Source of the DNA: an uncultured Pseudomonadota bacterium
GTDB taxonomy: Bacteria; Myxococcota_A; UBA796; GCA-2862545
Assembly (NCBI GenBank): GCA_913061235.1
Contig: CAJXTB010000011.1
Coordinates: 1 to 64,000 of the forward strand
DNA: 64,000 nt
Direction of reading: 5' to 3'
Shown here: one piece after another, positions 28,320 to 43,673 of the stretch
Layout: the number at the start of each line of letters is the position of its first letter
Position numbering within the stretch: position 1 is the first letter of the stretch
Position numbers and translations under genes: made by a program
The notes under the pieces: generated by a model
Told to the model about the DNA's origin: nothing
The model's database searches: none
The model's input: only the letters and a program-made list of their open reading frames with translations

Positions 28320-30344
28320 ATGAACGGTCGCGTGTTGTTCCTGAGCCTAGCGGTGGTGTGCGTTTCGCTTTTCGGGTGTGGTGACGCCCCCGAAGATACC
28401 GGCACTCCACCTGTCGATGACGACCCACTCACCGTGTGTACGCCCGACGAGTACGAGGGCACCGCACCCACGTCGGCCTCCGACCGCGTGTGCGAGGCAC
28501 TGACCGTCTGCGCCATCGACGAGTTCGAGACCACAGCGCCTACATCGACATCCGACCGCGCCTGCGACGCGCTGACCGTCTGCACGCCTGACGAATACGA
28601 GAGCACCGCGTCCACCGCGGACTCTGACCGCGCCTGCGACGCGCTGACCGTCTGCACCATCGACGAGTTCGAGAGCACCGTACCCACGGAGAACTCCGAC
28701 CGTGTGTGCAGCACTCCGGTCTTCGTCGCTCTCACCGCAGGCAACCATCACACGTGTGCGCTGGACGACCAGGGCGACGTCGTCTGCTGGGGCGGCAACG
28801 AGGGGGACGAGGCAGACACGACGACGCCGCCCAGCACGCTCGGCACAATTACCGCAATCTCCGCAGGCTACGTCCACACGTGTGCACTGGACGACCTGGG
28901 CGATGTCACCTGCTGGGGCAGCGACAGGCTCGGTCAGGCCACCCCGCCGGACACACTTGGCACCATCACCGCCATCGCCGCAGGCGGCGAGCACAGCTGT
29001 GTCCTAGACGACCAAGGCGATGTCACCTGCTGGGGAGCGGACACCCTGGGGCAAGCCACCCCGCCGGACACACTCGGCACCGTTGCCGCCATCGCCGTGG
29101 GCCGCAGCTACGCCTGCGCACTGGACGACCTGGGCGACGTCACCTGCTGGGGTAATGACGGCTCTGGGCAGTCGACGCCGCCGGACACACTCGGCACCAT
29201 CACCGCCATCTTCGCAGGCTTCAGCCATATGTGTGCGCTGGACGACCTGGGCGACCTCACATGCTGGGGTTGGGACGGTGCCGGTCAGTCAACGCCGCCT
29301 GAAACGCTCGGCACCATCGCCGAAGTCTCTGCAGGCGGTGAACACACGTGCGCACTGGCCGACCAGGGAGGCGTCACTTGCTGGGGTGCCGACAGGCTCG
29401 GTCAGTCGATAGTGCCTGACACGCTCGGCACCACCGTCGCACTCTCTGCGGGCGGCGACCACACGTGTGCGCTGGACGACCTGGGCATCATCACCTGCTG
29501 GGGCAGCGACAGGCTCGGTCAGTCGATGCCGCCGGGCACGCTCGGCACCACCGCCGCAATCTCCGCAGGCGGTGACCACACGTGCGCGCTGGACGACCAG
29601 GGCGAGCTCACCTGCTGGGGTCGTTCAGATGAGGGGCAAACGACCCCGCCTGATGGCCTAGGCACCATTGACACGCTGTCCTCAGGAGGCAGATACAACT
29701 GTGTTCTGGACGACGGGGGCGACGTCACCTGCTGGGGCCAAGACAGCTCTGGGCAGTCGACACCGCCGGATACACTCGGCACCATCGTCGCCATCTCCGC
29801 AGGCGGTCTCCACGGGTGCGCCCTGGATGACCAGGGAGACGTGTCCTGCTGGGGCAACGACAGCCGCGGTCAGTCGCCACCGCCTGACGCGCTCGGCCCT
29901 ATGGTCGCCATCTCAGCTGGCGGCTGGCACACCTGTGCGCTCGACGCACTCGGTGACGTCACCTGCTGGGGCCGTGACACCGATGCTCAGTCGACGCCGC
30001 CTGCCAGCCTCGGCACCATCGTCGCTGTCTCCGCAGGCAACCAACACACCTGTGTGCTCGACGACCTGGGCGACGTCACGTGTTGGGGCTTGGACAACCG
30101 CGGTCAGTCGGCGACCCCTGACACACTTGGCACCATCACCGCAATCTTCGCAAGCACGTTTCATACCTGTGCGCTGGACGACCAGGGAGACGTCACCTGC
30201 TGGGGAGACAACAGGAACGGGCAGTTGACGCCACCGAGTACGCTCCGCACCGTCGTCTCCATCACCTTGGGCGATTCCCACACCTGTGCGCTGGACGACC
30301 GGGGCGACGTCACCTGCTGGGGCCTCCAGATCCACGCGCCTTAG
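28320..30344 (+). CDS. Cys-rich RCC1-repeat lipoprotein
   Basis: 674 residues. Lipobox SLFGC (Cys20). Residues about 37-132 contain four tandem 24-residue units of the form L-T-V-C-x(3)-E-(Y/F)-E-x(4)-T-x(2)-S-D-R-x-C, recalling TNFR-type Cys modules. The remainder is 14 RCC1-like units of 39 residues (117 bp) with the core H-T-C-A-L-D-D-x-G-D-V-T-C-W-G; the last is cut short at its end. Each unit has two Cys, so every blade probably has a disulfide, unlike the RCC1 protein at 127-3216. It is likely a surface-attached binding propeller inside the island. Confidence 0.85.
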   Translation: MNGRVLFLSLAVVCVSLFGCGDAPEDTGTPPVDDDPLTVCTPDEYEGTAPTSASDRVCEALTVCAIDEFETTAPTSTSDRACDALTVCTPDEYESTASTADSDRACDALTVCTIDEFESTVPTENSDRVCSTPVFVALTAGNHHTCALDDQGDVVCWGGNEGDEADTTTPPSTLGTITAISAGYVHTCALDDLGDVTCWGSDRLGQATPPDTLGTITAIAAGGEHSCVLDDQGDVTCWGADTLGQATPPDTLGTVAAIAVGRSYACALDDLGDVTCWGNDGSGQSTPPDTLGTITAIFAGFSHMCALDDLGDLTCWGWDGAGQSTPPETLGTIAEVSAGGEHTCALADQGGVTCWGADRLGQSIVPDTLGTTVALSAGGDHTCALDDLGIITCWGSDRLGQSMPPGTLGTTAAISAGGDHTCALDDQGELTCWGRSDEGQTTPPDGLGTIDTLSSGGRYNCVLDDGGDVTCWGQDSSGQSTPPDTLGTIVAISAGGLHGCALDDQGDVSCWGNDSRGQSPPPDALGPMVAISAGGWHTCALDALGDVTCWGRDTDAQSTPPASLGTIVAVSAGNQHTCVLDDLGDVTCWGLDNRGQSATPDTLGTITAIFASTFHTCALDDQGDVTCWGDNRNGQLTPPSTLRTVVSITLGDSHTCALDDRGDVTCWGLQIHAP

Positions 30345-34168: not shown

Positions 34169-37100
34169 CTACTGCAGTACGCCATTGATGTAGGTCGTGC
34201 CTGCGATAGCGGTGCCGGTGAAGGTTCCGCTGTACGGGCCGGTGAACGCGATGCGTCCGTCACCACCATCACGACCGCCGGTAGACAGGCCGCGTCCCCC
34301 CACAGCGGAGAGCGTGCCTACGCCGGAGAGCGAGCCGCTGACTACAAGGCGAATGGCGCCACCTGCACCGCCGCCGCAGTACCGGCTGCAGTTCTTGCCG
34401 TTGGAGAGCAGCGTGCCGTCGACGACCGCGTGTTGGGTCGTGATGTCGATGCGACCGCCGCCATCGCCCCCGTTTGAGCCGTTTTGGGACTCCAGTCGTC
34501 CACCGCCGGAGCCATACTCCAATGGATTGAGCGGGTCCCCATAGACGTCGTTGGACGAGCCCTCGCCGCGTGTGCCGTAGGTACCACCCGACGAACTGGT
34601 CTCGGCGCCGTCGGTGGTGAGTCCGGCCGCGCTCCAGCGTTCTGCCAAATTCAACGCTGTTTCCCCTCGGGCTCCGGTGCCGCTCACATCGATGGTGGCC
34701 GTATTGTCGAGGGTGAATGTATCGGACAACACGACTTGAAGGCCGTCCAGCTGCTGCCCCGATTGGAGCAAGGTGCTGCGAGGGAAGAGGTGTAGGTTGC
34801 CGAAGGTCAAGTCGTCGCCACCGACCTCGCGGAACACGCCAGTGAGAAAGAGGTAGACGTCGGACGCTAGCTCCACCGTAGAGCCGTCGAGCACTTCCAC
34901 GACTCCCGCGTTGCGCACGAAGGTGTCTCCGAACACTGTGGTCCGGTCGAAGGTTGGGAGCACCAGGGTGCCGTAGTGTTGGAGTGCGCTGTTCGACAGA
35001 GCGAAGGTGCCAGGAGCGAAGGTCGTGCCGCTGGTGATGGTCAGCGTGCCGTCCGTCTGTTCGTAGTCTTGTACTGTCAGCGTGCTGTTCAGTGTGGTGG
35101 CGCCATTGCTCTGGGTCCATGTGGAGACCGTTGCCCCAGCGCTAAGAGTGGTGTTGCCGGCGGTCTGAATCCAACTGTCGGCGGTCACAGCAGCGTTGTA
35201 GTTGGAGCCGCCGCCAGACACGGTGACGGTACCGCTGACGGTGAGCGGAGCGTTCATGGTGAGCAAGCCATCGACAGACAAGTCGTCGAGGTTGAGTGGC
35301 ACGTCGACCGTCATGCGTCCGTTGTCGGCCAGGCTCACGAAAGAGGCCGTCTCGCCAACTGGAATCGTCAGATCAGAGTAGTTGCCGTCCACCTGGAAGA
35401 TGCCGTCAGTACCGGCGTCGTTGAGGATAACCACGGTGCCTGAGGACGCGGTTCCGCCGAAACTACCGGAGGTGAAGCCCGTGACTGCAACCCGACCTCC
35501 TCCGCCGTCTCTCCCATTCGTGGATAGGCCGCGTCCGCCGTTTGCCGTGAGTGTGCCGGTGCCGGACAGGTCGCCGGTTAGCGCAACGCGAATCGCGCCT
35601 CCTGAGCCGCCGCCACAATACCGGCTGCAGTTCTTGCCGTCGGCAACGAGCGCACCGTTGAGTACGGCATGAGAGGCACGGATGTCGATGCGCCCGCCGC
35701 CGTCGCCGCCGTTGCTTGCGTTGCTGGCCTCCAGCCGTCCTCCGCCAGATCCAAGCTCTTGTGGGTTCCTCGGGTCGCCATAGGTGGCTATGGACGAGGC
35801 GGTGCCACGTGCGCCATACGTGCCGCCTGCAGAGCTCGTCTCAGCGCCATCGGTCGTAAGGGTGCCCGCCAGCCAGCGCTCTGCCAGATTGGTGCTGCGC
35901 TCACCGAGCCCACCGGTGCCGCTCACGTCCATGACGGCGGTGCTGTCCAGAGTGAAGGTGTCCGACAGCCTCACCCGAAGGCCGTCCAGCCGCTGCCCCG
36001 ATTGGAGCAAGGTGCTGCCAGGGAAGAGGTGCAGGTTGCCGAAGGTCAAGTCGTCGCCACCGACCTCGCGGAACACGCCACTGAGAACGACGTAGACGTT
36101 GGATGCTAGCTCCACCGTAGAGCCGTCGAGCACTTCCACGACTCCCGCGTTGCGCACGAAGGTGTCTCCGAACACTGTGGTCCGGTCGAAGGTTGGGAGC
36201 ACCAGGGTGCCGTAGTGTTGGAGTGCGCTGTTCGACAGGGCGAAGGTGCCGGGAGCGAAGGTCGTGCCGCTGATGATGTTCAGTGTGCCGTCCGTCTGTT
36301 CGTAGTCTTGTACTGTCAGCGTGCTGTTCAGAGTGGTGGTGCCGTTGCTCTGGGTCCATGTGGGCACGGTGGCGCCAGCGTTGAGGCTGGTGGTACCGCC
36401 GGTTTGCATCCAGCCATCCGCGGTGACGGTGTCGTTGTAGCTGGAGCTGCCGCCGGACACGTTGACGGTGCCGTTGACGGTGAGGGGGGCGTTCATGGTC
36501 AGCGAGCCGCCGACAGACAGGGATTGCAGGGTCAGCGGTGTGTCCGCGATGATGCGTCCGCTGCTGGCTAGGCCAACGATAGACGGTGTTTCACCCGCTG
36601 GAATGGTCAGTACCGCGTCGGTACCGTCGACCTTGTAGATGCCGTCGGTTCCTGCCTTGTTGAGAACGACGACCGTTCCTGCGGAGAGAGTCCCGGTGAA
36701 GGCGCCCGTCTCGTAGCCGGTGATGGCAATGCGTCCGCCGCCACCATCTTGACTGAAAGAGCCCGAGCCGCTTCCGCCGTTCGCCGTCAGCGTTCCGCTA
36801 CCCGACAGAGTGCCGGTCAGGGCAACACGAATCGCGCCGCCCGAGCCCGCACCACACCGACTGCTACAGTTCGTCCCGTTGGCGCTCAGGGTCCCGTCGA
36901 GTCGGGCGTCTCGAGCCGTCAGATCGATGCGTCCACCGCCGGTTCCTGCGCTCGACCCGTTCTGTTCCTGAAGGGTTCCACCGCCCGAACCCAGCTCCCT
37001 CGGATTGCGGGGGTCGCCATACGGAGTGTTCAAGGACCCACTTCCGCGAGCCCCGTAGGTTCCTCCTCCGGAGCTGGTCTCCGCACCAACGCTGGTGAAG

Positions 37101-38353
37101 CCCTCTGGCGTCCACCGAAGTGCATCGCGGGCTGAGTTCTCGCCCGATCCTCCGCGATAGTTCACGTCGACTCTGCCGCCTGCTTGGATGTCAAGAAGCC
37201 CGCTGATGACGATGTTCACGCCATCAAGGTCGAGGGCGTTGTGCGTGAGGTAGCCGGAGGGTGTCACGGTAAGGGAGCGAAAGGAGAGTTCCCCAGAGCC
37301 AGTAACGTAGCTATTCACTACGACATTTGCGCAGGTGTAGGTCGGGTCGCCAGCGCTGATGGTGGTTGTCGTGTTGATCACGATGGGGTCAGGCTCGATG
37401 CCGCCGACTGGAAGAGCGCATGGGTCCGGGTCGACGTCATCGAGCTGGCTGCCACGCGCAAGGAAGGTGTCGTCGGGAAGGGTTGCGTACGCGCCGACGC
37501 GCACATCGGCACGCAGGCGGCTGTTCGCTCCAATGGTCGACCCGTCGCGAAGTTCGCTGTCGCGACCCACCACCGTGTCTTGGCCAATCGTCACGTTCTG
37601 GCCCGCAAGCACGTCCTTGCGCAGGCGAACGTTCTGGCCGACCTCCAGACCGTCGCCGGCGCTGAAGTCAGGACCGATCACAGTTCCCGTTCCAATCATG
37701 GCGTCGTCGCCGATGTTCGCATTGCGCGCGATGGCGGTCAGCCCACCAATCTCGCAGTCGTCGCCGATCTGAACCAGATTGCCAATGAAGATGGGGGTTC
37801 CGGTGAAGGTGCACCGATCGCCGACCGTGGATGCGTAGCCAAGGTAGACGTCTCCCAGCTGGGCATCGACGTCGTCTCCTACAACGGCTGAGCGTAGGAG
37901 GATGCTGTCGGGACCAATGACCGTGCGTGCGCCCACGCGTGCCCCCCGCCCAATCACGGTGTCGGCGCCAATGCGGGCGTCTGCACCGACCGCGGAGCGC
38001 TCGACGAGAACGGCGCCAGCCTCCAGCGTAGCCCCATCACCCAGCACCGCTCCGGAGCGGATCTCGGCCGAGTCCTCGATAAGCGAACCGACGCCGAAGT
38101 CGCCTTGGACTATCGCTCCGATGTGTACACAGGTCTCTGCGCCATCGGGCAGCGCCAAGTCGTAGTCTAGGTAGTCGCAACCACAGAAACCAGGAGCGTC
38201 CTTGGTCGGGTTGTCTGGGCACTCATCTGCTGTCGCAACGAGGGTCAGGTCTGCGGTGTCTTGAGGACTTGTCGACCGGGCCATGCCGGACGAGGCGTCC
38301 TCACTTTCGGTGGGCACGCACCCAGAAACCACCAACCACAACAGTCCGAACAT
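34169..38353 (-). CDS. Exported left-handed beta-helix lipoprotein with three 413-residue repeats
   Basis: 1394 residues from the ATG at 38353 (MFGLLWLVVSGC lipobox, gggaga upstream). Residues about 75-310 are hexapeptide (left-handed beta-helix) repeats such as IGADTVIGRGARVGARTVIG, the fold of LpxA/GlmU-type acyltransferases, but here in an exported protein. The rest is beta-helix-like, made of three tandem units of 413 residues; each has a GAETSS-GGTYG-RG block, a GSGGG and GGGRID region with an NC-x(3)-C pair, and a TLTANGG strand. The third unit is cut short. It is probably a surface-anchored adhesin or scaffold; no acyltransferase active site is claimed. Confidence 0.82.
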   Translation of the reverse strand: MFGLLWLVVSGCVPTESEDASSGMARSTSPQDTADLTLVATADECPDNPTKDAPGFCGCDYLDYDLALPDGAETCVHIGAIVQGDFGVGSLIEDSAEIRSGAVLGDGATLEAGAVLVERSAVGADARIGADTVIGRGARVGARTVIGPDSILLRSAVVGDDVDAQLGDVYLGYASTVGDRCTFTGTPIFIGNLVQIGDDCEIGGLTAIARNANIGDDAMIGTGTVIGPDFSAGDGLEVGQNVRLRKDVLAGQNVTIGQDTVVGRDSELRDGSTIGANSRLRADVRVGAYATLPDDTFLARGSQLDDVDPDPCALPVGGIEPDPIVINTTTTISAGDPTYTCANVVVNSYVTGSGELSFRSLTVTPSGYLTHNALDLDGVNIVISGLLDIQAGGRVDVNYRGGSGENSARDALRWTPEGFTSVGAETSSGGGTYGARGSGSLNTPYGDPRNPRELGSGGGTLQEQNGSSAGTGGGRIDLTARDARLDGTLSANGTNCSSRCGAGSGGAIRVALTGTLSGSGTLTANGGSGSGSFSQDGGGGRIAITGYETGAFTGTLSAGTVVVLNKAGTDGIYKVDGTDAVLTIPAGETPSIVGLASSGRIIADTPLTLQSLSVGGSLTMNAPLTVNGTVNVSGGSSSYNDTVTADGWMQTGGTTSLNAGATVPTWTQSNGTTTLNSTLTVQDYEQTDGTLNIISGTTFAPGTFALSNSALQHYGTLVLPTFDRTTVFGDTFVRNAGVVEVLDGSTVELASNVYVVLSGVFREVGGDDLTFGNLHLFPGSTLLQSGQRLDGLRVRLSDTFTLDSTAVMDVSGTGGLGERSTNLAERWLAGTLTTDGAETSSAGGTYGARGTASSIATYGDPRNPQELGSGGGRLEASNASNGGDGGGRIDIRASHAVLNGALVADGKNCSRYCGGGSGGAIRVALTGDLSGTGTLTANGGRGLSTNGRDGGGGRVAVTGFTSGSFGGTASSGTVVILNDAGTDGIFQVDGNYSDLTIPVGETASFVSLADNGRMTVDVPLNLDDLSVDGLLTMNAPLTVSGTVTVSGGGSNYNAAVTADSWIQTAGNTTLSAGATVSTWTQSNGATTLNSTLTVQDYEQTDGTLTITSGTTFAPGTFALSNSALQHYGTLVLPTFDRTTVFGDTFVRNAGVVEVLDGSTVELASDVYLFLTGVFREVGGDDLTFGNLHLFPRSTLLQSGQQLDGLQVVLSDTFTLDNTATIDVSGTGARGETALNLAERWSAAGLTTDGAETSSSGGTYGTRGEGSSNDVYGDPLNPLEYGSGGGRLESQNGSNGGDGGGRIDITTQHAVVDGTLLSNGKNCSRYCGGGAGGAIRLVVSGSLSGVGTLSAVGGRGLSTGGRDGGDGRIAFTGPYSGTFTGTAIAGTTYINGVLQ
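34220..37150 (-). repeat. Tandem 1239-bp intragenic repeat, three copies
   Basis: The motif ga(a/g)ct(g/c)gtct recurs at 34593, 35832 and 37071, exactly 1239 bp apart. Between the first two copies the tract 34865-34998 is identical to 36104-36237, while flanking parts differ at many bases, so this stretch was exchanged recently. Confidence 0.87.
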
Positions 38354-38544
38354 GTTGTTCTCCCTCGCGTACGTTCCGGTTGCACGAAGACATCGTGAAA
38401 CGAACACAGACTGGAACACGGGGTGGAGCCTCTGGTGGCACTCGTTACGTGTTGTAACCTCGTGTTCGGCGTGACTGCGGGACAGCGAGGTTGCCCGCAG
38501 CTAGGGTGTGACCGAGGGCAAAACACGGGCCTTCTGACAGTAGC
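38354..38544 (-). other. Upstream region of the beta-helix lipoprotein gene
   Basis: A non-coding stretch holding the dyad gttac-N5-gtaac (38444-38458), about 90 bp before the start at 38353. The promoter should lie here. No other feature seen. Confidence 0.35.
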
Positions 38545-38620
38545 AGTTCACGCCGCTGGAGCTCGCCCGTCGCCTAACGGCAGGGGGCCCGCCGGCCGGT
38601 CACGTGCGACTTTGGGGTGT
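38545..38620 (+). mobile_element. IS91-like transposase fragment
   Basis: Reads QFTPLELARRL, equal to the same block in the fuller copy at 40096-40490, and then jumps to the cacgtgcgact terminal segment. This indicates an internal deletion. Confidence 0.55.
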
Positions 38621-38648
38621 GCCGAATTTGTTCGGGCAAGCGCTGTAC

Positions 38649-39059
38649 TCACAGCTTCGAAACAGTGTTCACGAGCAGTGCAATCAACACAAAACAGCCC
38701 ACTAGGAACAACCGAAGTCTGGTCGGAACATGGTTCGAGCCGATGTGCACATAGGCATGGGCGTACCTGCTCAACGCGAACGACCACGCGAGAAAGAGGG
38801 CCACCGTGTCGACTGCATCCATGCTGTGGAGCGCCAAGCACATCACGTAGAACAATACGGGGACTTCGAATTGGTTTGCGAGGTTGTTGGAGACCTTTAC
38901 GACAGACTTGGGCCAGGCGCGGTTGTCCAGTGCCGCCTGACGGCGGTCGACCTCACCAGCTTTCACGGCCTTCGCCTTCCTTAAAGCGAGCACGATGAGC
39001 ATCATCAGAGTGAGTAGGATCTGGGCCAGAACAGGCCAAACGATGAGATTGGAGTTCAT
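38649..39059 (-). CDS. MAPEG family membrane protein
   Basis: 136 residues from the ATG at 39059, with gagga 7-8 nt upstream. Four hydrophobic segments and the family-typical RYAHAYVHIGSNHVPTRLRL block mark a MAPEG protein (membrane-associated eicosanoid/glutathione metabolism family). Bacterial members are often glutathione transferases or of unknown role. It is divergent from a TetR gene with twin operator-like sites between, so it is a likely target of that regulator. Confidence 0.83.
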   Translation of the reverse strand: MNSNLIVWPVLAQILLTLMMLIVLALRKAKAVKAGEVDRRQAALDNRAWPKSVVKVSNNLANQFEVPVLFYVMCLALHSMDAVDTVALFLAWSFALSRYAHAYVHIGSNHVPTRLRLFLVGCFVLIALLVNTVSKL

Positions 39060-39089
39060 TGGAGGTCCTCGAGGTGTGAATGGAACCAA

Positions 39090-39131
39090 ATGGACGTCGT
39101 CTATCTATCCGAGCTTATGGACACCGTCCAT
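39090..39131. promoter_or_regulatory. Twin operator-like dyads between MAPEG and TetR genes
   Basis: A perfect dyad, atggac-acc-gtccat (39117-39131), and a near copy, atggac-gtc-gtctat (39090-39104), lie 27 bp apart, centre to centre, in the divergent promoter region. Repeated dyads of this size beside a TetR gene are typical of its own operators. Confidence 0.6.
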
Positions 39132-39303
39132 TTCAGAGGGTGACAAGAGGTCAGTCCCAATCGATTCCTGTTCCCATCAGGAGATGGCCCACCCACCGCC
39201 GACAGGTCCCGCAGCCGTCATGTTATGGACCGCTAGGATAGCACTGACGAATCGGTCGAGATGAAAGGACGCCGGCGTTTGGTCGATTAGGGGCGAGGTC
39301 GAT

Positions 39304-39930
39304 TTGAAGGCGAAGCGCAAACGCACCGTGGGGCAGAAGCACGGCGACCTGCGGAACGAACTCCTTCGGGAAGGCCTGAAGCTCCTTGATACCCATGGAA
39401 TCGAGGGCGTCACCATTCGCGGCGTCGCGCGAGAGGCAGGCGTGGCCCATTCCGCCCCGGCCAACCATTTCCGCTCCAAGCGAGCCCTGTTGACAGCCAT
39501 CGCGGCAATCGTGTTCGCAGACCTCGCCGACCGAATTGACTCGGCAACAGCCGAGATGGCACACCACACCGAACAGGCCATCAAGGCTTTTGCGGATACC
39601 TGTTTTCAGTTCGCATTCGACGCCCCCAATCGCTACCACCTCCTGTGGCAGCGTCAGCTCATCGACCAGGATGACCCGGCAGTAGCCGCGGAGATGGATC
39701 GGGTGTATGCAGCGCTACTTTCGGTGCTACGACAAGACCGCGCACCCCACCGCGTGGACATCGAAACCGATGCCATTGCAATCTGGTCGATGATTCACGG
39801 CTACATCAGCATGCGCTTGGATGGAAACCTAGTGGAGGCCGCCGATACGGTGACGAACCTTCCACGGCACAAGGCGATTCTGTTGTCGCTCATCGATGGA
39901 GTCTACAGCCGCGAGGTTCCGACGCCGTGA
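39304..39930 (+). CDS. TetR family transcriptional regulator
   Basis: 208 residues from a TTG start (gaggt about 5 nt upstream). The N-terminal helix-turn-helix is clear: LREGLKLLDTHGIEGVTIRG, then VAREAGVAHSAPANHFRSKRAL. The C-terminal half (WQRQLIDQDDP, IWSMIHGYISMRLDGN) fits WHG-type TetR ligand domains. It is divergent from the MAPEG gene, with the twin dyads between. Likely role: repressor of MAPEG and of itself. Confidence 0.88.
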   Translation: MKAKRKRTVGQKHGDLRNELLREGLKLLDTHGIEGVTIRGVAREAGVAHSAPANHFRSKRALLTAIAAIVFADLADRIDSATAEMAHHTEQAIKAFADTCFQFAFDAPNRYHLLWQRQLIDQDDPAVAAEMDRVYAALLSVLRQDRAPHRVDIETDAIAIWSMIHGYISMRLDGNLVEAADTVTNLPRHKAILLSLIDGVYSREVPTP

Positions 39931-40866
39931 GAGCTGCCCGAGGGGAGGTCTGAGCCTGTGTTCGACAGCAGGGCCGGTCACAGTGGAGCGACGAGGGGAG
40001 GGGCCGACAGCGCTGGTGCACCGAGTGGTGCGGCTGGCGCCCCGAGATACGGCTTCGCATGGCTGCCGGGCGGGCGACGCGACCAACGGCGGTCGAGACG
40101 CCGGAGACCGCGAGCGGCTGTGTCGCTACCTGCCCCGTCCCGCTCTCGCTCGCACCCGGCAGTAGGAGACACCGGCCGGCCTGATCTGGGTGAGGGTCAA
40201 GCGTCCATGGGCCGATGGCACCGCCGGAGTGATGTTCACCCCGCTCGAGCTCGCCCGTCGTCTCGCAGCCCTGGTCCCGCCGCCGCGTGCTCACCTCGTG
40301 CAAACCCATGGCGTGCTCGCTGGCCGCTCCGCCCGACGCCGTATCCGTCCGAGCTGCAGCACACCGCTGTGGGGCCGGTCACGTGCGACTCGGGGTGAGC
40401 AGAATCGGCGCCGGCGACCGATTCGCGGCTCTCGCTACGCAAGTCGCCCGCCCATGGTAGACCGTGAAGGGCATTGGAACTGCCTATTTGGAGATCGGTG
40501 CTTTGCCAAGGAGCTCAACCGTCTGGTCGACGATGTGGGGCGACGGGAGACGCTATCGGCGGCCTCCATTGTCTACAGCGGTGCCGGTCCACGTTGAACC
40601 GGGCTGCGCCGCTGATGCACGCGCCTAGCTTCCTCAGCGCACCGCAGTGTGTCCCGACACAACTCCGGTGCGCCGAGTCGCTATGCACGCACCTGAACGA
40701 CGCATCCCGCGGGTCAACCTGACCCGGCAACGCTGCATGCGCGGAAGTACTGCACGGAGCAGGACTGCTTTTGGCCCACTTCTCGAGTGGCTGGACGGCT
40801 GCTGAGTGGGCTCAGGACGCCCATCCAATGACCGGTCGAGTGGAGGGCTACTGTTGGTCGCCTTGA
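39931..40866 (+). other. Gene-free stretch with a decayed IS91-family transposase
   Basis: 936 bp between the TetR gene and a lipoprotein gene. The middle is the transposase fragment at 40096-40490, listed separately. 39931-40095 may hold more of it in a broken frame. In 40490-40866 I see no gene and no clear repeat. Confidence 0.5.
40096..40490 (+). pseudogene. IS91-family transposase pseudogene (internal and C-terminal part)
   Basis: One frame reads DRERLCRYLPRPALARTRQ, an in-frame TAG (40163-40165), then VRVKRPWADGTAG, FTPLELARRLAALVPPPRAH and THGVLAG. The order RERLCRYL-RPP, LKRPW-DGT, F-PLE-L-RLAALVPPP-H and (Y/T)HGVLA is the signature of IS91/ISCR rolling-circle transposases. The upstream catalytic Tyr region is missing. 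It is followed by the shared terminal block with cacgtgcgact. Confidence 0.75.
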
Positions 40867-41238
40867 TCAGTGGTCCGTCGTCGATCCGGACGTGTCCTCC
40901 TCCTCCTGGATGGAACGTAGAATCTCCGCGAGTCGAGCCTCGGTCGCGGCGACGTCCTCGCGTAGGCGCGTCGTGTCTCGGGATGGGTATGCAGAGTCGA
41001 TCTCGTCGATCATTGCTCGTGCTTCCACGATGGCACGCTCTAGCTCGTCCGCGCCAGCACGCAGACTGGAGCGACGATGTGCCCTGGCTACGGCCTGTAC
41101 GTCTCGCTCTGCTTCGACTGCGGTCCGGGCTTCGGCTTCCCTGGAGACGAGGTTCCCCCGATCTCCAGGGGACGCCACCGGGCCCGTCGGAGGCGAGCAT
41201 GCGGGTAGGAGCAGCAGGAGGACGGCGAGGCTTCGCAT
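40867..41238 (-). CDS. Coiled-coil lipoprotein
   Basis: 123 residues from the ATG at 41238 (MRSLAVLLLLLPAC lipobox). The mature part is highly charged and helical, with heptad-like Glu/Arg/Ala stretches (AEARTAVEAERDVQAVARA, LREDVAATEARLAEILRSI), so it is probably a coiled coil. Lpp-like or scaffold functions are possible; no family recognised. It lies between IS91-like fragments within the island. Confidence 0.65.
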   Translation of the reverse strand: MRSLAVLLLLLPACSPPTGPVASPGDRGNLVSREAEARTAVEAERDVQAVARAHRRSSLRAGADELERAIVEARAMIDEIDSAYPSRDTTRLREDVAATEARLAEILRSIQEEEDTSGSTTDH

Positions 41239-41468
41239 GTGGGAACCCGTGGTGTTGAGCGTCACCCTAACCCGTGAGTGGGGGATGCCATGAGGGGATG
41301 GAGCCTTACCCGCCACCGCGCCGGTAGTTCGAGGCTAGGGAACGGCGCGCAAGGTCATCCGCCCGCCGGACGTGGGACATCGCCACCCGTCCTCTGCGAA
41401 CACACGCTGCGGAGCGGTGACTTCGCCGGGGGAAGGGCGTGCTCGTGACACGCCCACCCGTGCCAACG
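41239..41468 (-). other. Gap holding an inverted IS91-like fragment
   Basis: 230 bp between the coiled-coil lipoprotein gene and the Gly-rich protein. The only thing recognised is the fragment at 41337-41412. Confidence 0.4.
41337..41412 (-). mobile_element. Inverted IS91-family transposase C-terminal fragment
   Basis: On the minus strand one uninterrupted frame reads VFAEDGWRCPTSGGRMTLRA followed by VP and a stop. The zinc-knuckle-like C-P-x-C-G-G-R-M of IS91 transposases is altered to CPTSGGRM. It is the inverted relative of 30755-30824 and 43233-43565. Confidence 0.6.
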
Positions 41469-43175
41469 CTACGGAGCGTAGCGGATGATAACGATGCCTG
41501 AGCCGCCTGTGCCTGAGCCGCCGGTCCAGACGCTGCCGGTCCAGTAGGTGCCGCCGCCGCCGCCGCCGCCGGTGTTCGGAATGCCGTGTGGCAGGCTATG
41601 TCCCTTTGTCGTCGCGTTTACCTCGTCGGGGTATGTGAGGTAGTTGTAGTACGAGGTGGAGCCCTGGCCGCGTCCGCCGCCGTCGAAGCCGTCACCGGCG
41701 CGCTGGGAACTGTTGGCGCCGCCGCCGCCGCCGCCGGCGTATCGGAGTAAGCTTCCGGAGATGCTGCTCGCCACCCCCACGCCACCGTTGCCGCCCGTGC
41801 CACCATTGCTGCCTGCGACGCCGGGACCACCCGCGCCGCCGCCACCGCCGCCGGTGTAGTTGAAGGCACCGTTGCCGCCGCTGTGTCCCTGTCCGGTCGT
41901 TCCGGTTCCAGGAGTCCCACTAAGCCGTCCGCCACCACCGCCGCTACCGCCGCTACCGGCTGCGGCACTGTGAGCGCCGCCGCCGCCGCCGCCGATTGCC
42001 GTGAGCGTCGAGAACACGGAGTTGCCGCCGTTGCCGCCGGCCGAGTATGTACCCCTAGGCCAGCCCTGACCACCCGCTCCGACGGTCACACCATACGAGC
42101 CTGCATCGACCGCGAAGGAGGTCTGGGAGATGACGCCGCCGCCGCCGCCGCCGCCGTTGGCATTGGTGGTGCTGTATTGCCCGCCACCGCCGCCGCCAGC
42201 GACGAGGAGGACTTCGACGGTGATGGGAATGTCGGTCGAGAACGTGCCCGACTGCGTGAAGGTGTAGACGCTATCACCCACGACATCCGCCAGGGTCCCA
42301 CCCGTAATCGCAATCTCCGCTTGGCACTGTTCTGGTGCCTGTGAGCCGCTAGCAAGCGTGGTCCCCGCACAGACTTCTCTGCCGCGAGCCACAATCGCAC
42401 CCGCATCGACCGTCGCTCCAGCGCCGACCGTCGCTCCGGCCTCGACGCGTCCGAAGACTGTCGCTCCCGCCTCGATGATGGCACCACGACCCACGCGACC
42501 CGTCGATTCAATGGCTGCACCCGCGCCAATGTCGGCCTGCTTGCGAACACGTGCGCCCTGTTCAATGCGTGCGCCCGCTGCAATGAGCACGTCGGGTCCC
42601 ACAATGCCGTTGACCGCAGCGCCATTGCCTGAGTTGGCGCCATCCAGAATCGTTACACTACGGGCGACGACTGCACCGTCGCCCAAGGTCGCGAAGTCTC
42701 CGATAGAGACGAGGTTTCCGGCTACCGCATTTGCGCCAATGGTGACATCGTCTCCGACCTGTGCGGCGTATCCAAGGGTTCCGCCGGCAGCGACGGTCAG
42801 GCGCGCACCTGCAACAGCGGACCGTCCGATCGTGACGTCATTGCCAAGCACATGGTCTGCGCCAAGCTGCGCACTACGGCCAATGACGGTGTTTGCACCG
42901 ATGGGGAGGGGGTTGCTGGCGTGTGCAACACGTCCGGCCAGCGACGCACGCGCAGCCACAACAACATCGGCGCCCAAGGCGACTTCAGGCCCAATGGAGG
43001 CGAGCTCCATCACGTTCGCGCTGGTGCCCACCGTGCTTGAGGGGTCAACGGTCGCGTCGACGTCGACACACGCTCCGTTCCCCGCGTATTCGTCTTGGCA
43101 TCCATCTCCGTTGCTATCTGCTGCAAACGCGACGGAACCCGCTGCCATCCAAATCAAAAAACTGCACCGAAACAT
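41469..43175 (-). CDS. Exported beta-helix protein with Gly-rich C-terminal domain
   Basis: 568 residues from the ATG at 43175, with ggggag 7 nt upstream; a longer open frame to 43574 is only mobile-element debris. A signal peptide (ending near VAFAA) is followed by a short DSNGDGC segment and hexapeptide left-handed beta-helix repeats (about 40-260: IGANTVIGRSAQLGADHVLG). From about 285 to 568 comes a very Gly-rich region with GGGGGG runs, ending in GGSGIVIIRYAP, the typical end of the glycine-rich domain seen in phage tail and surface proteins. It shares the beta-helix part with the lipoprotein at 34169-38353. Confidence 0.82.
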   Translation of the reverse strand: MFRCSFLIWMAAGSVAFAADSNGDGCQDEYAGNGACVDVDATVDPSSTVGTSANVMELASIGPEVALGADVVVAARASLAGRVAHASNPLPIGANTVIGRSAQLGADHVLGNDVTIGRSAVAGARLTVAAGGTLGYAAQVGDDVTIGANAVAGNLVSIGDFATLGDGAVVARSVTILDGANSGNGAAVNGIVGPDVLIAAGARIEQGARVRKQADIGAGAAIESTGRVGRGAIIEAGATVFGRVEAGATVGAGATVDAGAIVARGREVCAGTTLASGSQAPEQCQAEIAITGGTLADVVGDSVYTFTQSGTFSTDIPITVEVLLVAGGGGGGQYSTTNANGGGGGGGVISQTSFAVDAGSYGVTVGAGGQGWPRGTYSAGGNGGNSVFSTLTAIGGGGGGAHSAAAGSGGSGGGGGRLSGTPGTGTTGQGHSGGNGAFNYTGGGGGGAGGPGVAGSNGGTGGNGGVGVASSISGSLLRYAGGGGGGANSSQRAGDGFDGGGRGQGSTSYYNYLTYPDEVNATTKGHSLPHGIPNTGGGGGGGTYWTGSVWTGGSGTGGSGIVIIRYAP

Positions 43176-43673
43176 ATATTCTCCCCAGTTGCTATGAAGC
43201 AGGAGAGTACACCCAAAGGTTCGATTCGGAAAGCTACCTGATCTGGGCGGAGCGGCTGTGGCGGGTGTTCGCGGTCGACGGATGGCGTGATGTCCCACCT
43301 GCGGGGACGGATGACCCTGCCCACATTTCCGTGTCCGCGAGCTCCGCTGCACATCCCGGGCGGCCACGACGCTGCGGCCGCACGAGAACCGTTTGACGCC
43401 GTCGCCGTGTCCGCCTGAGTCGCAGCACTCCGTTGTGGGGCCGGTCACGTGCAACTCGGGGTGAGCAGAATCGGCGTCGGCAGTCGATTCGCGGCTCTCG
43501 GTAGGCGAATCGCCCGCCCGCGGTACGGAGCGAAGGGCGTTGGAATCACCAATCCGTCGCGCGTCTCTCGACAACCCGTTTGGCGGCGAGGCGTGCCGCG
43601 CAGAGGCTACGGATGTGGAACGGGCAAATCGAGCAGACCGATTCGCGGAACGTCCATCTACCGGAACCAGGCC
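43176..43673 (+). other. Gene-free stretch at the right edge of the island
   Basis: 498 bp. It holds the promoter side of the Gly-rich protein gene, then the IS91-like fragment 43233-43565. About 110 bp with no recognised feature follow, and then the right direct repeat. Confidence 0.45.
43233..43565 (+). mobile_element. IS91-family element 3' end, decayed
   Basis: Reads YLIWAERLWRVFAVDGWR and then a frame-shifted C-P-T-C-G...R-M-T-L segment, followed by the terminal block shared with 30945-31236 and 40330-40490 (ccggtcacgtgcaactcg, gcggctctcg). It ends about 110 bp before the right direct repeat. Confidence 0.65.

Follow-up and report, generated by a model that had tools for sequence, protein, structure and literature searches.

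The window considered here, the first 64,000 nucleotides of contig CAJXTB010000011.1 from an uncultured bacterium (assembly GCA_913061235.1), contains two genes, P0001 and P0002, whose products are exported proteins built around hexapeptide repeats. P0001 is a lipoprotein and P0002 a secreted protein. Each carries a repeat module of about 230 residues (the stalk), which matches Pfam Hexapep with E = 1.1e-23 and 2.4e-17, respectively, followed by a C-terminal part of its own (the head). Both are probably members of a set of mosaic binding proteins, about 97 in number, that are exported and built on a common stalk. The sharing of the stalk, the export signals, a ladder of arginines along the stalk, the diversity of the heads and the mixing of heads with stalks are all observed directly.

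The preliminary description of this DNA had noted export signals on both proteins, a common hexapeptide module and unrelated C-terminal parts, and these three points hold. P0001 begins with MFGLLWLVVSGC, in which residues 8-12 form the lipobox VVSGC, and P0002 has a cleavable signal peptide ending in AFAAD. The C-terminal region of P0001 consists of 413-residue repeats, as opposed to a Gly_rich_2 domain in P0002, which passes the gathering score of PF21722 (86.6 bits against a cut-off of 24.3). Two details required correction. The 413-residue repeat is real (65% identity at an offset of 413, locally up to 95%), but the region from about residue 400 to 1394 holds about 2.4 copies rather than the three full ones first described; these repeats had no Pfam match at E≤1. 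Likewise, the LA(R/S)GSQ element proposed to close both helices does share an xRG core, but pairwise alignment sets LARGSQ of P0001 against VARGRE of P0002 and not against LASGSQ. Profile matches were taken as the evidence for the repeats in preference to a period-6 Fourier test of isoleucine, leucine and valine; that test placed P0001 above all 2000 shuffles and did not do so for P0002, where alanine replaces many of these residues.

Table 1. Features of the two exported hexapeptide-stalk proteins in the window.
Feature	Position	Strand	Basis
P0001: lipoprotein, hexapeptide stalk and 413-residue repeats, 1394 amino acids	34169..38353	-	open reading frame, Pfam, repeat analysis
P0001 lipoprotein signal MFGLLWLVVSGC, lipobox VSGC	38318..38353	-	motif reading
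P0001 hexapeptide stalk, about residues 75-305	37439..38131	-	Pfam and alignments
P0001 C-terminal repeats, period 413 amino acids, about 2.4 copies	34172..37156	-	offset self-comparison
P0002: secreted hexapeptide stalk protein with Gly-rich head, 568 amino acids	41469..43175	-	open reading frame and Pfam
P0002 ribosome-binding site ggggagaatat before ATG	43176..43186	-	alignment of upstream DNA
P0002 cleavable signal peptide MFRCSFLIWMAAGSVAFA, ends AFAAD	43122..43175	-	sequence reading and paralogue alignment
P0002 N-terminal cap DSNGDGCQDEYAGNGAC with conserved C26 and C36	43068..43118	-	96-member alignment
P0002 hexapeptide stalk, residues 37-266	42378..43067	-	Pfam, PDB matches, 96-member alignment
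P0002 head: Gly_rich_2 domain, residues 307-566	41478..42257	-	PF21722, E=3.2e-24

The genome to which the window belongs (G000; 7.18 Mb in 72 contigs, 99% complete) was searched with the P0002 stalk, which returned 110 matches spread over 34 contigs. Some 20 of them are 68-87% identical to P0002 across signal peptide and stalk. From the matches, 96 distinct full-length family genes were recovered; P0001 was missed by the local search and added to them, giving about 97, and all counts over 96 members are without it. A simple rule detected a signal-like start in 95 of the 96 and a lipobox in five of these; the start codon of the lone remaining member is probably wrongly placed. With P0001, lipobox carriers thus amount to about six, and the rest have ordinary cleavable signals. 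Lipoboxes of the P0001 kind also occur in the relatives L055, L060, L065, L067 and L068, and P0001 itself falls in a lipoprotein-rich clade of ten rows in the stalk tree (support 97). Among 98 delimited open reading frames, 83 place the stalk N-terminally with the head behind it and 15 have it internally or C-terminally. Several family genes stand as tandem pairs.

Conservation begins upstream of the coding sequence, where most paralogues keep a GGGGAGA ribosome-binding site. In the signal peptide of P0002, A16, A18 and D20 are invariant across 34 aligned paralogues. The cap that follows resembles a thrombospondin type 3 motif, its cysteines recur across the family (C26 in 75/96, C36 in 93/96), and the motif is expanded in some paralogues (TSP_3 in 6/91). 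At the other end of the stalk, the arginine of the xRG cap is present in 82 of the 96 members.

All 91 members scanned against Pfam and NCBIfam, the five longest having been left out, match Hexapep (PF00132). In the PDB, the sequences of the P0001 and P0002 stalks match the left-handed beta-helix enzymes LpxD, LpxA and GlmU, and a profile of 34 paralogous stalks matches hexapeptide beta-helix enzymes at up to 2e-12. The most constant stalk residues are basic: R100 is present in 96/96 members, R172 and R230 in 95 each, R118 in 93, R209 and R211 in 92 each, and K212 in 91. Conserved positions lie 18 residues apart (82, 100, 118, 136, 154 and 172, then 212, 230 and 248 past a conserved GIVGP loop). 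Since a left-handed helix of hexapeptides completes one turn every 18 residues, the conserved residues should line one edge of it. In P0002 this edge reads R82-R100-R118-(Y136)-(N154)-R172 and, past the loop, R209/R211/K212-R227/R230; the conserved basic residues of the P0001 stalk are R136, R154, R210, R243, R245, K246, R264 and R300. Each stalk has on average 2.6 pairs of arginines spaced by 18, where 0.69 are expected; in 18 LpxA/LpxD/GlmU-type controls the average is 0.56 and the expectation 0.86. We suggest this "arginine ladder" as a signature of the family; it may form a trimer contact or an edge that binds polyanions.

With LpxA, LpxD, GlmU and sugar acetyltransferases as the closest sequences of solved structure, the members might be exported enzymes: the stalk would acylate or acetylate glycans outside the cell, and the head would serve only for targeting. 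However, no histidine is conserved in the stalk across the 96 members (the best column, position 108, reaches 41/96), which argues that the stalk is not a working acyltransferase and bears out the departure from that role proposed in the preliminary description. What is conserved instead is the periodic ladder of arginines, which is missing from the enzymes, and to our knowledge donors such as acyl-CoA (coenzyme A) or acyl-ACP (acyl carrier protein) are absent outside the cell. Neither P0001 nor P0002 reaches the NCBIfam acyltransferase cut-offs; the LpxD model, for example, gives 77 bits against 207. With no conserved histidine and enzyme models far below cut-off, acyltransferase function was rejected, and an exported enzyme is highly improbable.

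A left-handed beta-helix is the putative fold of the stalk, suggested by its sequence homology to the enzymes and by its 18-residue periodicity. AlphaFold2 was run on the whole protein and on the stalk with two-row alignments, which gave low pLDDT (45 and 64, respectively); adding LpxD rows misplaced the repeats. The low-confidence models place two-residue strands every six residues. Structure prediction followed by Foldseek was set aside as proof of a left-handed helix, the alignments being too shallow.

The heads are far more varied than the stalks and fall into about 30 groups on clustering. Among the 91 members scanned, NF040941 (fibrinogen-like) matches 39 heads and PF00147 Fibrinogen_C 27, and further families include COLFI (17), TLD (5), two kinds of Gly-rich domain (4 + 4), FG-GAP (3), RCC1 (2), LamG (1) and others. 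These families overlap, and many heads are without any match; beta-helix repeats are also found as heads. Fibrinogen-like heads, a class to which neither P0001 nor P0002 belongs, contain a YCDMxxxGGGWT motif besides their similarity to Fibrinogen_C. A profile of 15 of them finds the Xenopus lectin XEEL (1.8e-12) and FIBCD1 (7.7e-11) in the PDB, and also intelectin, fibrinogen, angiopoietin and ficolin. All 15 keep the same opening stretch (IDPDGxGG...YCDMTTDGGGWT) and the same final residues (VR), with a middle so variable that it could not be aligned. Judged from sequence, such a constant frame around a hypervariable middle is what would be expected of a recognition domain, though it is not proof of one.

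Repeats like those of the RCC1-like heads, which sit on two hexapeptide stalks, also occur elsewhere in the window. In a lipoprotein-like open reading frame at 28320-30344 (+), TSP/TNFR-like CTxDEYE repeats come first and RCC1-like CALDDxGDVxCWG repeats after them. In L172, L174, L175, L177 and L180 of the same genome, fibrinogen-like heads are carried by a third kind of N-terminal domain (QGRLLDSxGxPLNGxH...), which makes a stalk type of its own. Strong matches to the MopE-like motif (PF11617) number at least 150 in this genome and are spread over many open reading frames, some with fibrinogen-like heads (L181), and the MopE-like proteins are another very large secreted family of this genome. 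A MopE-like neighbour was considered as a conserved partner of the stalk genes and rejected: repeat reading frames of this kind lie in 30 family loci, but with so many in the genome their proximity is probably an effect of abundance.

Heads and stalks are mixed within the family. The stalks of P0002 and L005 are 89% identical, while their heads, Gly-rich in one and fibrinogen-like in the other, are unrelated. The same holds for adjacent genes in L042 (stalks 86% identical, heads unrelated), and the reverse is found between L026 and L062, whose heads are 57% identical and stalks 23%. On a stalk tree of 83 rows, three broad head classes require at least 20 changes of class, and in several sister pairs, supported at 96-100%, the two members have heads of different classes. 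The rigid exported platform with exchangeable tips envisaged in the preliminary description is supported by these exchanges among about 97 stalk paralogues. So is its suggestion of a family of its own, given that the combination is described by no Pfam or NCBIfam family.

Among 20 close members, identity at the DNA level also changes past the stalk. Between the start codon and the end of the stalk it stays near 0.7; beyond that point it declines in steps, and most of the head has values of 0.33-0.4, as does the DNA upstream of the gene except at the ribosome-binding site. Between compared stalk pairs, first and second codon positions are about 0.8-1.0 identical and third positions go down to about 0.3-0.9. 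Since third positions have diverged and first and second positions are conserved in most pairs, purifying selection holds the stalk. One case of exact identity concerns the tandem paralogues of L044 (1539-2399 and 3231-4091), which have 861 exact bases in common over the stalk; their signal regions have diverged and their heads are near saturation at third codon positions. This tract looks like recent gene conversion or recombination, and it may alternatively be an assembly artefact. Exact tracts of at least 40 bases shared between members number only seven in the 96 genes. Recent genome-wide gene conversion was thus rejected as the source of stalk likeness: with one long exact tract (861 bp) in 96 genes and third positions mostly diverged, selection is the main cause. 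A diversity-generating retroelement was likewise discarded, the assembly having a single RVT_1 match. This match (L101) is a 254-residue open frame that by eye is of the group II intron type, in a region that looks broken.

These data also bear on whether the expansion is neutral, with duplicates hitch-hiking in a large genome and doing little. Such an account could draw on the genus being represented by a single genome and on the expansion of other families alongside. However, codon positions indicate strong purifying selection on the stalk, and the scarcity of exact tracts implies that most copies are old yet intact, which makes neutral growth very unlikely.

Outside this genome, relatives are scattered, and the stalk expansion belongs to this genome, the one representative of its genus. 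A 34-row profile (E≤1e-15) did not find the expanded family in any of 70 other genomes of the class, its one match there being a partial one in G019 (same family); earlier scans of 57 relatives agree. A P0001-type stalk profile run over 379 genomes of the phylum matched G019 and G157, besides a false match to LpxD. In G019 the protein is exported, with its hexapeptide part C-terminal and without the R-18-R pattern. In G157, from another class of the phylum, a protein (L157) with many CPAGxYCPxG repeats has a thrombospondin type 3-like segment and then, at the C-terminus, a hexapeptide domain in which R-18-R pairs occur six times; it is a distant single-copy relative of the stalk. Candidate carriers G018 and G101 were dismissed, their matches being LpxD enzymes. 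Two scans of the whole collection returned no relative in one case and only LpxD/LpxA/GlmU-type enzymes in the other. Only the best candidates were scored per genome, and counts in other genomes are accordingly lower bounds. Fibrinogen-like heads are widespread in the order (29 of 38 genomes) and abound in G000 (81), G005 (57) and G009 (18); in the G005 and G009 loci that were read, MopE-like DCDD repeat stalks carry them. The fibrinogen-like head is old and shared, and the hexapeptide stalk beneath it is this lineage's own.

From these observations, a mechanism may be proposed. Proteins would be exported by signal peptide or lipobox, usually with a short Cys/Asp cap before a stalk of about 230 residues. 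The stalk, a predicted left-handed beta-helix, would have lost the catalytic residues of the enzyme and kept the arginine ladder, and its fold family suggests a rigid trimer showing three copies of the head. Heads may bind glycans or other cell-surface ligands, as the kinship of the fibrinogen-like ones with intelectin, FIBCD1 and ficolin suggests. The repertoire could then grow as genes duplicate, recombine within the conserved stalk and diverge fast in their heads. Among the least certain parts are the targets, which may be other cells (prey, hosts or kin), and the arginine face, which might attach to something anionic, for example the envelope of the producing cell.

The strongest rival is a structural role, in which stalks pack into an extracellular scaffold (an S-layer, or a spore or capsule-like coat), heads cross-link it and recognition plays no part. 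Large copy number, a strongly constrained stalk, an arginine edge that could touch neighbours and the few identifiable anchors would all suit such a matrix. Nevertheless, a lattice has no need of some 30 head clusters, and very diverse heads, fibrinogen-like and with a constant frame around a hypervariable middle, fit it poorly. We regard a matrix or coat as unlikely, though less so than the enzymatic and neutral accounts.

Several observations weigh against exported binding proteins on a left-handed stalk. No anchor was identified in the many members that have no lipobox, which leaves surface display as only a possibility. The heads are of several unrelated kinds, and RCC1-like or FG-GAP heads need not be lectins. 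The mass of MopE-like proteins and the fibrinogen-like heads on other stalks indicate that large secreted families are a general trait here. Finally, the best Foldseek matches of the low-confidence models are right-handed helices (TM about 0.3), and for this reason the handedness rests on sequence.

Taken further, and held only tentatively, the set of exported binding proteins could be the bacterial equivalent of a repertoire for innate recognition. A formerly metabolic fold would have expanded within one genus as a secreted trimeric stalk, marked by the new arginine-ladder signature, with about 97 exchangeable heads, many of them ficolin- or intelectin-like, and recombination in the stalk would make new stalk-head pairs for recognition of prey, host or kin. 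The significance lies in a metabolic enzyme fold that one bacterial lineage took outside the cell, where it has multiplied roughly a hundredfold and presumably serves as a stalk that presents heads, ficolin-like ones among them. If the heads bind distinct glycans, the family would offer a ready bacterial lectin library on a common scaffold, a second "one stalk, many tips" solution beside that of Bdellovibrio, and a natural system for repertoire growth without a dedicated diversifying enzyme. For annotators, the arginine ladder could separate exported stalks from acyltransferases, their otherwise likely label.

A literature search for an exported hexapeptide family or a bacterial fibrinogen-like family found neither, and known systems resemble this one in parts. 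It shares the hexapeptide repeat of PF00132 with the left-handed beta-helix acyltransferases (LpxA, LpxD, GlmU), with 91/91 members matching, and differs from them in being exported, in having no conserved catalytic histidine, in its arginine every 18 residues and in the fused head. NF040941 (GGGWT_bact), matched by 39/91 heads, names only a 46-residue motif, which in G005 and G009 sits on MopE-like DCDD repeat stalks instead. The MAT fibres of Bdellovibrio bacteriovorus comprise 21 proteins with a constant N-terminal part and variable C-terminal tips; their shafts are trimeric, intertwined beta-prisms, their N-terminal domain is conserved, tip swapping has been proposed, and one MAT was shown to bind prey glycans (PMC10769870). 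Both systems are large paralogous repertoires with a constant N-terminal part and varied C-terminal tips, but the present one has about 97 members against 21 and other tip domains, and it falls outside the MAT superfamily because its N-terminal part is a hexapeptide stalk, not a MAT domain or beta-prism shaft. With the ficolins, FIBCD1 and intelectins of animals it would have in common the design of an oligomeric stalk and a fibrinogen-like recognition head, and the heads are sequence relatives; unlike them, it is bacterial, its stalk is hexapeptide rather than collagen or transmembrane coil, and its heads are far more divergent. On our best reading, the family would work like MAT fibres or ficolins while being homologous to neither as a whole.

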